From a virus: a DNA stretch of 39,999 nt. The DNA lies in the IMG/VR virus record IMGVR_UViG_3300028831_000274, positions 1-39,999 of that record, one strand, 5' to 3'. The notes beneath the pieces were generated by a model. That model made no database searches. It saw only the letters and a list, made by a program, of their open reading frames with translations, and was not told where the DNA came from. The position numbers were made by a program, and so were the translations under genes. Shown here one piece after another: positions 4,020 through 37,155 of the stretch (positions are counted from its first letter, which is position 1; every line of letters starts with the position of its first letter).

Positions 4020-6002
4020 TTACTTTGCATTCCATTGGGTTCCATTAAACACGACCAACAATGAGCCATAGTTACTATTGATCGTCTTACTTGCAGCGCC
4101 ATTAATATTATTGCCATTACCTTGCACAGTGATGTTATTGGCGCCTGCGCTTCCTGTGTCGTCGATGATAAGATGCTTTTCTCCAGTCGTTGGAGCTGCT
4201 GGCAAATTTATTGTCCGGGCTGAACTTGTGCTGACTGGAATTGAAAATTCTTGTGGCTTAACTGTATAGGGATAAGCTCCAGGAATAGAGACAATTTCTG
4301 CATTGTTTCCACTCTGGATAGGTACTTGAGTTGTGGTATTGATTTTTGTCTGTGTGTCAGTAAATGAAATATTAGACCATTCAATAGTTCCGGCCCCTGC
4401 TATGGCTGAGGTACCATTAGTACTTTGAATAGCGCAATTTGCAACACTATAAGTGGCTCCAGTCCCGACAGAAATAGCGGCATTTGTCCCTCCGAAGAAT
4501 GAACAGTTAAGCCCCGTCTGGGCTGCTCCGGTGCCATTAGCAATAAGGGGTCCATGGAATTCTGTATCAGAGGCTATGAAGCCACCTGTACTAGAAGTGG
4601 TGATGGCATTGTTGAAATAGCAATTCAATAAGTTTACTGTTCCCGCACTACAAGTGCTTGCAGCTGTAGTGCCTCCGTTATTTTCAAACACGGAATTGTA
4701 AAAAGCCAATTTGCCAGCAGATGAATGAGTAAAATAGGCAAAAGTGGCTGATACATCTCCTTTGCAAGCATAAAATTCTATCTTAGAGTTTCCTGAAGAA
4801 GAGGTATAATGAATGCCATTATTATCATGGGCATAGAGAAAGCAATTTACCAGACGAAGAACAGAGGCATTCGCTCCTGTAACCTCAATAGCATAATCTC
4901 CATTAGTTTCTAAAATCAGACCAGATAAACCGACATTACCTACTTGAGAATAAGAGATTTTGCCGACTATTAATACACCAGCGGTTTTGCTTGCAGCATC
5001 GCATGAAAAGCCAGATATATTTATTCCCGCTGTCAATGTAAGATCTTCAGTATAGGTTCCTGGCTGAACAAACACGGTCTGAGGGGCACCGGCAGCCACG
5101 GCAGCTGCATAGGCGCTTGCAATGGTGGTATAATTGGCCCCATCTGTCGTTCCTCCGGCGCTAACGATATATCTGGCCACATGTAAGTCAGTCAATGAGC
5201 CAATGGCGGAAACCATTCCACTCGTGGCATCTATTGAAAATTGCATATTGTTAAAACAAGCAATACCGCATTTATTAGAATTAACCGGAGTGGGTGCTGT
5301 TATTGTAGCTATTTGAATATCAAATCTTTCTGTATTGGCAGCGCTATTGAGGACATAGAGAGGTTTGGCATGTGTGGCATTGGCCACAGTATTTCCTAGG
5401 AAGTTGATATTTCCTGTGCCAGAAGGAGAAACAGCAACGGCATCATCTCCTGTCGCCGTAAGAAGTGGGGGATTTACTGATCCACCTTTTAATGATACCA
5501 TTCCGCTGGTGGCATCCATCGTAAATTGATTGGTGTTAAAGCAGGCTAGGCCAACATTCACATTACTGCCAGGAGTAGGAGTTACCGTCGTAGCAAGTTG
5601 GACTTCGATATTTTCTGTATTGGCTGCGAAGGAAGTGGTAAAAACAGGCTTAGCATTCGTGGCATTCGCGACAGTCTCGCCAAAGACATTGATATTGCCA
5701 CTGACATCTGGATTTACAACGACAGTGTCATCTCCTGTAAGACTTACAACAGTCCCAGAGCCAGAGCCATTCAATAATTCCCAATAAGCAACGTTAGCTA
5801 CGATCTTAGTCAAAAGCCAAAGTTCACCTTCAACACCTGTCGTCGGATCTTTACCCACTTGCCATCCGGCAAAAATAGGGTAAAGTCTTCCTGTCTCAGG
5901 CTGCCGGTAATCTGCGCCGGTAGGTCGACGATCTCGCGTGACAATATTGGCTAGGTAAACATCTGTTCCGCGATATTTTGTTGGAGTATTTGGTGCGACC
6001 AT
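4020..6002 (-). CDS. Tail spike/fibre with parallel beta-helix domain
   Basis: 660 aa. The N-terminus (about 1-80) is a short particle-binding type region. Residues about 89-171 and 184-266 are an internal duplication sharing G-D-D-x-V-x-V-x-P, G-N-I-N, T-V-A-N-A-T-x-A-K-P, A-A-N-T-E and M-D/I-D-A-T-S-G-M-V-S. Residues about 278-560 look like a right-handed beta-helix (repeated short turns, Q-P-G-T-Y-T-E-D at the start as in pectate-lyase-like folds). The C-terminus (about 590-660) has the N-Y-G-S-L-L-V-V-F-N-G-T-Q-W ending seen in other spikes. It is the last gene of the late block and probably the receptor-binding or depolymerising component. No catalytic residues can be assigned by eye. 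Confidence 0.78.
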   Translation of the reverse strand: MVAPNTPTKYRGTDVYLANIVTRDRRPTGADYRQPETGRLYPIFAGWQVGKDPTTGVEGELWLLTKIVANVAYWELLNGSGSGTVVSLTGDDTVVVNPDVSGNINVFGETVANATNAKPVFTTSFAANTENIEVQLATTVTPTPGSNVNVGLACFNTNQFTMDATSGMVSLKGGSVNPPLLTATGDDAVAVSPSGTGNINFLGNTVANATHAKPLYVLNSAANTERFDIQIATITAPTPVNSNKCGIACFNNMQFSIDATSGMVSAIGSLTDLHVARYIVSAGGTTDGANYTTIASAYAAAVAAGAPQTVFVQPGTYTEDLTLTAGINISGFSCDAASKTAGVLIVGKISYSQVGNVGLSGLILETNGDYAIEVTGANASVLRLVNCFLYAHDNNGIHYTSSSGNSKIEFYACKGDVSATFAYFTHSSAGKLAFYNSVFENNGGTTAASTCSAGTVNLLNCYFNNAITTSSTGGFIASDTEFHGPLIANGTGAAQTGLNCSFFGGTNAAISVGTGATYSVANCAIQSTNGTSAIAGAGTIEWSNISFTDTQTKINTTTQVPIQSGNNAEIVSIPGAYPYTVKPQEFSIPVSTSSARTINLPAAPTTGEKHLIIDDTGSAGANNITVQGNGNNINGAASKTINSNYGSLLVVFNGTQWNAK

Positions 6003-19606: not shown

Positions 19607-19634
19607 GGGGGTGCGCTAACACCCCCATTTTTTT
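19607..19634. terminator. Strong GC hairpin with T-tract
   Basis: GGGGGTG (19607-19613) pairs with CACCCCC (19620-19626), loop of 6, followed on the plus strand by ATTTTTTT. As written it is a textbook terminator for plus-strand transcripts, yet all neighbouring genes are minus. On the minus strand the hairpin is followed only by TTTCTACT, so there it may act as a partial terminator or an mRNA-end stabiliser between coat-proximal and tail genes. Confidence 0.6.
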
Positions 19635-33404: not shown

Positions 33405-33439
33405 GTATTTAATTTAATGCACCATACCGAAATATATCA

Positions 33440-33513: not shown

Positions 33514-33774
33514 ATGAAAACACTAGCAGATTTTAAACGGGCCTTGACTATAGGCTCACAATGGAAGTTTGAGAACTGGTTGTATGGAACATACGGAATA
33601 CGCACGATTACAAAAGTTTTATCTAAAGGTTTTTGGTGCTTACGCGAGGATGGCATTGAGGTTTATATTGATTTTCCTAGAGCCTGTAATTGTTGCATAG
33701 TCAACTCTAAGGTGAGAATATACACGGAGCATGAAGAAGAATCTAAAGTTATGTTTGTTTTTGAAAGAGTTTAG
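33514..33774 (+). CDS. Hypothetical early protein, 86 aa
   Basis: Beta-rich small domain: T-I-G-S-Q-W-K-F-E-N-W, Y-G-I-R-T-I-T-K-V-L-S-K-G-F-W-C-L, Y-I-D-F-P-R-A. The G-x-R-x-I-x-K-V pattern recalls small OB- or SH3-like phage/plasmid proteins. First gene after the early promoter. AGAAGGT lies about 7 nt upstream of the ATG. Its stop is 7 nt before the first conserved hairpin. Confidence 0.6.
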   Translation: MKTLADFKRALTIGSQWKFENWLYGTYGIRTITKVLSKGFWCLREDGIEVYIDFPRACNCCIVNSKVRIYTEHEEESKVMFVFERV

Positions 33775-33781
33775 GCTTCAC

Positions 33782-33807
33782 TCACTCCTAGAACTATCTA
33801 GGGGTGA
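33782..33807 (+). promoter_or_regulatory. Intercistronic hairpin, copy 1
   Basis: TCACTCCTAGA pairs with TCTAGGGGTGA (11 bp, one G-U), tetraloop ACTA. It starts exactly 7 nt after the previous stop. The next ATG is 33 nt later, behind AAGGAG. The downstream linker is also similar to that of copy 2. Confidence 0.7.
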
Positions 33808-33840
33808 TATGACGGTTAAACCAACAAAAAGGAGTTTAAT

Positions 33841-34026
33841 ATGCCTAAATCACAAAATAGTTATGACGAATTATTATCTAGAGCAAAACTTAAAAGTGAA
33901 GCCTATTTAAAAGTCCAACAAGATACGAAAGATATTTGCAATCTATCCGAAAGGGATTTAGAGCATATGCAACATGCTCTTTATTTAGAGTTATGCGAAA
34001 AAGCCTTGGTTAGGGCCTACGATTAA
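33841..34026 (+). CDS. Hypothetical early protein, 61 aa
   Basis: Helical and charged (Y-D-E-L-L-S-R-A-K-L-K-S-E-A-Y-L-K-V, L-S-E-R-D-L-E-H-M-Q-H-A-L-Y-L-E-L). AAGGAG precedes the ATG. It is flanked on both sides by the conserved hairpins. Not recognised. Confidence 0.6.
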   Translation: MPKSQNSYDELLSRAKLKSEAYLKVQQDTKDICNLSERDLEHMQHALYLELCEKALVRAYD

Positions 34027-34033
34027 TTCTTCT

Positions 34034-34059
34034 TTGCCTCTAGAGCTATCTAGGGGCAA
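34034..34059 (+). promoter_or_regulatory. Intercistronic hairpin, copy 2
   Basis: TTGCCTCTAGA pairs with TCTAGGGGCAA (11 bp, one G-U), tetraloop GCTA. It again starts 7 nt after the stop of the preceding gene. Compared with copy 1, outer pairs C-G and A-T are replaced by T-A and G-C, keeping the stem. The next ATG is 29 nt away behind AAAGGAG. Confidence 0.7.
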
Positions 34060-34088
34060 GCTAAGCATTAATCGACAAAGGAGACTAT

Positions 34089-34262
34089 ATGAAAGAGTAT
34101 CTAGTCTGGACTATTTTTGGTTGTATCTTTCGAGTAGACGGCCGTGATATGTATGAGGCCCGCTTAGAGGCTATAAAGAAGCTGAAGGGCGGTGATAAAA
34201 TAAGAGGCATGCAAGAATCAAAAGAAAAGGAGTTATGCAATGAATACTACCATAAAATATAG
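34089..34262 (+). CDS. Hypothetical early protein, 57 aa
   Basis: Starts M-K-E-Y-L-V-W-T-I-F-G-C-I-F-R-V, a hydrophobic strand or short membrane-like segment, then Y-E-A-R-L-E-A-I-K-K-L and a Lys/Glu-rich end. It lies behind the second hairpin with AAAGGAG. It overlaps the next gene by 23 nt. Not recognised. Confidence 0.58.
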   Translation: MKEYLVWTIFGCIFRVDGRDMYEARLEAIKKLKGGDKIRGMQESKEKELCNEYYHKI

Positions 34263-34674
34263 TGATTTTTTTGAATCACGCCAACGCAATGATGGAACTA
34301 GCTTTATCGCACTGAAAGATGAAAGGCCCGAATATCTTTCTGATTTTTTATATGAGATACACGGGGGGTATTTGCCCGATGACTGGACATACCGCATAAT
34401 CATGGAAGCTTTCGAGGAGCTGGAAATAGATAATTTAGAAGATATTACCATAGAAGCGGATTGCTATTACCACGATTTGGATCAATGGTTTTCATTATAT
34501 CGCGGATCTCATGAGCTGTGCAATGAGGCCCTTGAAGACTTTGGGCCTTTTGATGATATTTACAAGATTATTTCAACGGCACAAGTCTTAGCAAAAGAGC
34601 GTATTTATGAGGTCGTGAATGATTTTATGGAAACCCATAAAAATGATGAAATAAAAGAGGAGGAAATAAAATGA
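34240..34674 (+). CDS. Hypothetical acidic early protein, 144 aa
   Basis: Acidic, helical, with no membrane segment (I-M-E-A-F-E-E-L-E-I-D-N-L-E-D-I-T-I-E-A-D and C-Y-Y-H-D-L-D-Q-W). AAGGAG lies 7 nt before the ATG. The stop overlaps the next ATG. The acidic surface could suit a nucleic-acid-mimic or host-factor-binding early protein, but that is speculation. Confidence 0.6.
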   Translation: MNTTIKYSDFFESRQRNDGTSFIALKDERPEYLSDFLYEIHGGYLPDDWTYRIIMEAFEELEIDNLEDITIEADCYYHDLDQWFSLYRGSHELCNEALEDFGPFDDIYKIISTAQVLAKERIYEVVNDFMETHKNDEIKEEEIK

Positions 34675-35748: not shown

Positions 35749-36046
35749 GAAGATAAAGACTGTTGAAATGTATGCGCTGGCCTTGATTAGCGCCACCATA
35801 TCGTTAAATACTTTGCAAGGAGTTGAACTTTTGGCCTATAATGAAGGGCTTCTTGAAGAGGAAGAAGAGGAACTTAGCAAAACAATATGCTGGGAGATTA
35901 AGCGCTTGCAGAGCTTATACAAGAAGCAATTGGAAAGCGTATCGGAACGCATCCCTGATTATGTCGAAGAAAATCTCATAGAAGATTTAAAAAAATTATT
36001 TGATAAACCTAAAGAAAAGAAAAAACGGAAGGTCAAAGATGAATAA
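35723..36046 (+). CDS. Hypothetical helical protein, 107 aa
   Basis: Helical with E-E-E-E-E-E-L-S-K and a Lys-rich end. It starts 26 nt before the XRE stop with AAGGAGCG upstream and overlaps the recombinase start by 8 nt. Not recognised. Confidence 0.55.
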   Translation: MTPTPLNLEKIKTVEMYALALISATISLNTLQGVELLAYNEGLLEEEEEELSKTICWEIKRLQSLYKKQLESVSERIPDYVEENLIEDLKKLFDKPKEKKKRKVKDE

Positions 36047-36803
36047 ATACCTAATTTATTTAAGATGCTCAACGAATATGCAGGATTTCCACACACAGGA
36101 AAGCATGGCTTTAGACTTTATAAAAAACATTGAGGGAGCTAACCCCTTCTCTCACAGTTTTTTCATAGACGATGACGTATCTACTAGCATTAAAATGGCT
36201 AAACGGCCACAATTGCAGGCCATGCTGGGTGCCCTATGTCCAGATGTAAAAGTTGTTGTTTATAACTCCGACCGATTAAGCCGGGATGTCATTGAGATGG
36301 TGACGATTTACCGGCAAATCAAACAGGCCCGCGGATACCTTCTTAGCATAACTGAGAGCGGAATTGATGACGAATTTATGATGGGTTTAAAGGGCGTTTT
36401 AGCCCAGAAAGAAAAATCTGATATTCGGCGCCGAATTGTGGATAAATTGTCAGTAAAGAAGAAAAGAGGCGAGCGCATTAGCCGATTTATTCCGTATGGA
36501 TATCGCCTAGACCAGGATACGAAGATAGCTTTGAAGCGTCGTAATGGAACGGTCGAGTGGAAGCTTGGCAAACTCCATAAGTCTGAATCCGAACAGGAAG
36601 TTCTTCATAAAATGCAACAGATGGCTGCATGGGGACAATCTTTTCGCCAGATTGCACGGGCATTGACCGAACAGGGCCATCGGACCCGCGAGGGGAAGCC
36701 GTTTCAGCCAATGACGATATATCGCATTCTCGCCCGAACGACTCATAAAGATCAAATTCATTCGCCTCAGGATAGCTCTCCTCAACTAGTATTATCGTCT
36801 TAG
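36039..36803 (+). CDS. Small serine recombinase
   Basis: 254 aa from ATG 36039. N-terminal resolvase domain with the catalytic serine in L-R-C-S-T-N (R9, S11), the D-R-L-S-R motif (78-82) and an arm ending in E-K-S-D-I-R-R-R. It is followed by P-Y-G-Y-R-L and a compact C-terminal DNA-binding segment with G-Q-S-F-R-Q-I-A-R-A-L-T-E-Q-G-H-R-T-R. It lacks the long coiled coil and zinc part of large phage integrases, so it is resolvase/invertase-sized. It could resolve genome multimers or mediate integration. Its last 317 nt run antisense to the RusA frame. Confidence 0.82.
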   Translation: MNKYLIYLRCSTNMQDFHTQESMALDFIKNIEGANPFSHSFFIDDDVSTSIKMAKRPQLQAMLGALCPDVKVVVYNSDRLSRDVIEMVTIYRQIKQARGYLLSITESGIDDEFMMGLKGVLAQKEKSDIRRRIVDKLSVKKKRGERISRFIPYGYRLDQDTKIALKRRNGTVEWKLGKLHKSESEQEVLHKMQQMAAWGQSFRQIARALTEQGHRTREGKPFQPMTIYRILARTTHKDQIHSPQDSSPQLVLSS

Positions 36804-37155
36804 GCTCTTTGGCATAAATTTTGCAAAGAGATCCTATCTCAACCTGGGCGTCGTCTTCATATACGATGCCCGTCATGCAATCGAGGTAAGTTTTGGCCAA
36901 ATTATCCACATCGGGCTTTTTAAAATGCTTATATAGATTGCCCTTTTCGAATTGCTTCACCATGTTTTTCGGTGTGGGCATACAAAACAGCATAGAGACT
37001 TTAGGATATTGCAAACATGGACGATTGAACCACTGACAAAATATTTTTTTAATTATAAGATATTTATCTTTTTTATTCGGGTCAAAGCAATGACCATTGC
37101 GGGCTAATCTGGGTCTGCCTTGTGGAATGGGTTTGCCGGGAATTGTAATAATCAT
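36487..37155 (-). CDS. rusA: RusA-like Holliday junction resolvase with C-terminal extension
   Basis: 222 aa. The RusA core (about 1-126) has P-G-K-P-I-P-Q-G-R-P-R, then K-P-D-V-D-N-L-A-K and V-Y-E-D-D-A-Q-V with the catalytic aspartates D82, D84 and D101/D102. RusA proteins are usually near 120-130 aa. Here another 95 residues follow, and that part overlaps the 3' end of the recombinase in antisense, so it is probably read-through rather than a functional domain. It resolves recombination and replication branches before packaging. Starts in ATGA with the upstream gene. Confidence 0.82.
   Translation of the reverse strand: MIITIPGKPIPQGRPRLARNGHCFDPNKKDKYLIIKKIFCQWFNRPCLQYPKVSMLFCMPTPKNMVKQFEKGNLYKHFKKPDVDNLAKTYLDCMTGIVYEDDAQVEIGSLCKIYAKEPKTIILVEESYPEANEFDLYESFGRECDISSLAETASPRGSDGPVRSMPVQSGEKIVPMQPSVAFYEELPVRIQTYGVCQASTRPFHYDASKLSSYPGLGDIHTE

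Follow-up and report, generated by a model that had tools for sequence, protein, structure and literature searches.

Genomic context of the locus

The window analysed here is a stretch of 39,999 nucleotides, positions 1 to 39,999 of IMG/VR virus record IMGVR_UViG_3300028831_000274, which is probably a fragment of a virus genome. Its plus strand contains an operon that opens with an 86-aa gene, followed by genes for proteins of 61, 57 and 144 aa; a serine recombinase is encoded farther downstream. The operon is assumed to be early and, from the gene order, to be transcribed as a single polycistronic mRNA. None of the four small proteins had a significant family match. A search of GenBank phage records revealed no DNA similarity to the region, and the uncultured phage appears to represent a lineage without a close relative among those records. 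The genes and the Shine–Dalgarno sequences, the latter read from the sequence, are as follows:

33514-33774, plus strand: 86-aa gene (MKTLADFKRAL...), upstream of element 1; related to proteins of other phages but belonging to no named family
33829-33834, plus strand: Shine–Dalgarno sequence AAGGAG of the 61-aa gene
33841-34026, plus strand: 61-aa gene, between element 1 and element 2
34077-34083, plus strand: Shine–Dalgarno sequence AAAGGAG of the 57-aa gene
34089-34262, plus strand: 57-aa gene, 3′ of element 2
34240-34674, plus strand: 144-aa gene, fourth in the operon
36000-36803, plus strand: serine recombinase, farther down the operon

The 3′ part of the recombinase gene overlaps, tail to tail, that of a RusA-like ORF on the minus strand (36487-37155) over some 300 nt; in this ORF, the match to RusA is limited to the first 128 residues. 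Upstream of the 86-aa gene lies a 10-mer, CATACCGAAA (about 33425-33434), that is also found 5′ of the homologous gene in another phage contig, L003 (about 1248-1257). It is possibly a promoter or operator element common to both.

The nearest relative of the window found, as judged by terminase, is a 10.9-kb contig (L277) whose terminase is 87% identical in amino acids and 76% in DNA. The contig was assigned to a Bacteroidales-labelled MAG. This placement is likely a binning error, because strong Shine–Dalgarno sequences such as those of the window argue against that phylum.

Structure of the two elements

Two hairpins were originally predicted in the junctions on either side of the 61-aa gene, and both are present. 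Stem 1 (33782-33792 with 33797-33807) and stem 2 (34034-34044 with 34049-34059) each comprise 11 bp, including one U·G pair, and are closed by the loops ACTA and GCTA, respectively. Both begin 7 nt past a stop codon (TAG, 33772-33774; TAA, 34024-34026), and the distances from the stem ends to the next ATG are 33 nt (ATG at 33841) and 29 nt (ATG at 34089), close to the roughly 30 nt proposed. The common core described earlier corresponds to a shared 17-mer that is identical at 16 of 17 positions, and the outer pairs do change while remaining paired (C–G to U–A, A–U to G–C). Ranked by energy among the plus-strand stems of at least 9 bp in the 40-kb window, the two hairpins are third and first; when folded together with the downstream linker, they have z-scores of −4.6 and −2.7.

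The stems are real, but each forms just the apical part of a structure of 53–55 nt that includes the stop codon. When the RNA was folded with RNAfold, starting 5′ of the stop codon and ending at the following start, larger structures appeared at 33768-33822 and 34020-34074. Outwards to the apex, these consist of a lower helix (P1) of 6–8 bp, small asymmetric internal loops with a helix P2 of 3–4 pairs, the 11-bp stem (P3) and the 4-nt loop. The 5′ strand of P1, which holds the stop codon of the upstream gene, pairs with bases just 5′ of the Shine–Dalgarno sequence. The linkers downstream of the stems, reported as alike, are indeed similar, but they consist of the 3′ half of P1 and, after it, the Shine–Dalgarno sequence. 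The parts of the elements, all on the plus strand, are:

33768-33822: element 1, whole irregular duplex, 55 nt aligned (RNAfold, alignment, covariation, descriptor)
33769-33821: P1 of element 1; GTTTAG 33769-33774, ending in the stop codon TAG 33772-33774, with TTAAAC 33816-33821
33778-33812: P2 of element 1; TCA 33778-33780 with TGA 33810-33812; weak, alone not significant
33782-33807: P3 of element 1, apical helix, 11 bp, loop ACTA (hairpin 1 of the original prediction)
33808-33812: TATGA immediately 3′ of P3; predicted RNase III cut at 33810/33811, by analogy with T7 R1.1
34020-34074: element 2, whole irregular duplex (RNAfold, alignment, covariation, descriptor)
34020-34074: P1 of element 2; CGATTAAT 34020-34027, containing the stop codon TAA 34024-34026, with ATTAATCG 34067-34074
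34033-34060: P3 of element 2, 11–12 bp, loop GCTA (hairpin 2 of the original prediction, 34034-34059)

Related elements and covariation

No Rfam 15 family scored above its gathering cut-off in the window, and a relaxed threshold gave chance-level matches only; an exact-sequence search of viral contigs with the hairpin core returned no match. A search with the 86-aa protein identified homologues in several other phages. In one of these, L003, the same P1/P2/P3 layout is found at the junction directly after the 86-aa homologue; in another, L008, it is found at the junction three genes downstream of the homologue. The four elements (two from the window and one from each relative) can be aligned over 55 nt without gaps. 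In this alignment, 92% of pairing cells are paired, compared with 25–50% when the partners are slid, and both sides have changed in 15 of the 22 pairs. P1 alone has 96% of its cells paired versus 13–58% with slid partners; for P2 alone, pairing was not significant. Part of the P1 covariation arises because one shared sequence has moved in register by a single base, which leaves element 2 as the main independent change in this helix. The loops all differ (ACTA, GCTA, TTTT and TCAT), and so do the cores between phages. In all four predicted folds, the Shine–Dalgarno sequence and the AUG are unpaired.

A covariance model built from the two window copies, the check suggested at the outset, found the further copies in other phages: 25.5 bits (E 1.6e-4) for L008 and 22.6 bits (E 1e-3) for L003 on the plus strand with filters off. 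With default filters, neither was matched on that strand. The idea of a cis-acting RNA in which structure rather than sequence is kept is thus supported by the covariation in relatives, the model and a geometric descriptor. The two structures are a real, conserved RNA element occurring in three phages.

The descriptor was applied to both strands of 279 loci (2.39 Mb), mostly other phage contigs, and gave 215 matches, in 27 of which the lower helix contains a stop codon. Just four of the 215 combine a stop codon in P1 with a Shine–Dalgarno sequence and a start below, and these are exactly element 1, element 2 and the elements of L003 and L008. A lower helix of at least 6 bp occurs beside 13–16% of comparable hairpins, or 2–5% if the internal region is required to be one nucleotide longer on its 3′ side. 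The longer 3′ side, a feature noticed post hoc, is present in all four elements and in four T7 sites; background descriptor hits in general were not enriched in it. Dinucleotide shuffling of the flanks only gave p = 0.007–0.067 per element, which is modest for single elements.

The linker motif TTAAACCAA was considered as a family marker and rejected: it is common, mostly by chance, and about one fifth of the matches listed have some upstream hairpin. The extended pattern GTTTAR...TTAAACCAA...ARGAG has at least 108 distinct matches, and the three most stable among those listed are the L008 element, element 1 and the L003 element. The other matches listed look like coding sequence or chance, and one, L142, is a leader that has no gene upstream of it. 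Further members may exist beyond the pattern-scan matches listed.

The window, L003 and L008 together have six wide intergenic junctions (58–70 nt); every one carries a post-stop hairpin, in four cases as the full element; the remaining two hairpins, at L003 2315-2344 and L008 4467-4484, are without P1. In L004, L005 and most of L007, the genes at these positions abut or overlap, which leaves no space for the element. More distant relatives of the 86-aa protein (L263–L276) and their records gave no significant match to our model R1.

Comparison with RNase III sites of T7

When the early region of T7 was scanned with the same descriptor at loosened cut-offs, five matches were obtained, four at the junctions that contain the known RNase III sites R0.3, R0.5, R1 and R1.1, and the fifth within gene 0.7. 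The elements have the geometry of T7-type sites: an upper stem of about 9–12 bp, a small loop, an asymmetric internal region with one extra nucleotide on its 3′ side, and a lower stem. They also have the position of the T7 early sites (R0.3, R0.5, R1, R1.1 and R1.3), being irregular hairpins between genes with the ribosome-binding site and start just below, one transcript being assumed from gene order. The lower stem of R0.5 includes a stop codon, that of gene 0.4, as do the lower helices of the elements described here. Repetition of a stem sequence within one genome is likewise common to T7 RNase III sites. The elements differ from the T7 early sites in their middle helix P2, their 7/8-nt spacing and the lack of covariance-model homology; moreover, their phage carries a recombinase gene and is not T7-like, and cleavage here is predicted. 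Model R1 had no significant match in T7 (E ~2), its best two places being R1.3 and R0.5. The likeness is one of architecture, not of sequence.

The internal loop of T7 R1.1 is described as asymmetric, 4/5 (PMC6121014), and E. coli RNase III needs no more than a 12-bp stem with a tetraloop in order to cleave (PMC8708148). The cut in R1.1 lies at nt 5887 (PMC8708148); this is the second T of TATGA in the T7 record, so the cut reads UAU^GA. Three T7 sites, R0.3, R0.5 and R1.1, have TATGA immediately 3′ of their upper stem, and R1 is without it. The same motif occupies the same place in element 1 and L003, whereas element 2 and L008 lack it.

The descriptor also flagged two junctions in contig L058 (3482 and 9102) before its phage type was known. 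Judged by their sequences, two proteins of this contig, of 874 and 659 aa, look like a T7-like single-subunit RNA polymerase and a T7-like primase–helicase, respectively. Site 3482 directly precedes the polymerase gene, which is also where R1 lies in T7. These junctions are of the same descriptor class as the elements, but belong to an unrelated phage and have other stem sequences.

The element had been put forward as undescribed. Its kind is, however, already familiar from the RNase III sites of T7, and by this analogy it is probably a known kind of cutting point in a new phage lineage. Searches of a mainly open-access literature found no account of such sites in phages of this type.

Proposed function

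Taken by their analogy with T7, elements 1 and 2 are probably T7-type intercistronic RNase III processing sites in an early polycistronic mRNA. Among the three roles originally suggested (mRNA processing, control of translation re-initiation and binding of a phage protein), the first fits best because of the geometric match to T7 RNase III sites. P1, containing the stop codon, would close once the ribosome has left that codon and would complete an irregular duplex of about 20–22 pairs, interrupted by an asymmetric internal region. RNase III of the host would then cut this region on its 3′ side, in element 1 at the predicted UAU^GA (33810/33811). The cuts would divide the first three genes into separate messages; the upstream mRNA would be left with the stable P3 hairpin at its 3′ end, shielding it from 3′ exonucleases, and the 5′ leader of the downstream mRNA would be short and open, with a strong Shine–Dalgarno sequence at its end. 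Cleavage, the position of the cut, protection of the end and an effect on expression are inferred.

Since the stop codon is inside P1, a terminating ribosome must open this helix, and processing and translation may therefore be linked. A translation-gated switch, in which the terminating ribosome holds the RNase III site open so that it is cut only between ribosomes, is offered tentatively, as a rather doubtful extension of the processing model. If it exists, the balance between uncut and cut mRNA would report how heavily the upstream gene is translated, and T7 R0.5 would be another example. The recurring stop codon in the lower helix makes the link testable, and the geometry can be searched for by computer. 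The results suggest that unrelated phages with a recombinase gene, too, punctuate their early mRNA by means of RNase III in the manner of T7.

Translational control with no cutting is unlikely as the sole function. P1 would hide the stop codon along with the bases immediately 5′ of the Shine–Dalgarno sequence, a terminating ribosome would open the structure and pass initiation on, and the closed form would limit independent initiation. The stop codon within P1 in all four elements and the proximity of P1 to the Shine–Dalgarno sequence are consistent with this. However, the closed form hides neither the Shine–Dalgarno sequence nor the AUG, because both are unpaired in all four folds, and such control has no need of a long conserved apical helix and an asymmetric internal region. 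Control of reinitiation is possible as an effect added to processing.

It is quite unlikely that the elements, rather than being RNase III substrates, stabilise 3′ ends by blocking 3′ exonucleases after cutting elsewhere, or insulate cistrons against pairing with one another. The post-stop hairpin at every wide junction, twice without P1, agrees with such a role, and simple intercistronic stabilising hairpins share the post-stop position and the stable apical stem. The elements differ from these in their conserved lower helix with the stop codon; that helix and its register are not accounted for by such a role.

Recognition of the shared core CTAGARCTATCTAGGGG by a phage-encoded RNA-binding protein is very improbable. 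The near-identity of the core in two copies with differing outer pairs would suit it, but the shared core does not imply a specific reader, because T7 RNase III sites also repeat stem sequence within one genome. Across the lineage, such binding is unlikely, because each phage has entirely different loops and apical stems.

Just as remote a prospect is that the elements act as palindromic DNA, as an operator or a recombination site, or that they terminate or attenuate transcription: CTAGA-NNNN-TCTAG is a DNA palindrome and the stem is strong, but all four stems run on through G·U pairs on the sense strand, models score that strand higher (the four-copy model having been built from it), and the elements lie at gene junctions and not promoters. 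A DNA operator was rejected. So was an intrinsic terminator: no T run follows, and neither hairpin appeared in a terminator scan.

Other hairpins at gene junctions

A conserved gap of 81–86 nt follows the distant 86-aa homologue, before the next gene, in four contigs (L265, L270, L271 and L273); its hairpin, GTTAGG...CCTAAC, differs from the elements. Irregular hairpins of similar design lie near gene junctions in L222 (3809-3867, 4504-4560 and 4834-4891) and L085 (1349-1405), with weak scores against model R1 (12.7–19.9 bits, E 0.01 to 0.95). In the window itself, the minus strand has a strong, simple hairpin at 19607-19626 (8 bp, loop TAGC, −14.5 kcal/mol). It begins 6 nt past the stop codon of a minus-strand gene ending at 19633, with the next gene beyond, so a post-stop hairpin occurs in the structural operon too.
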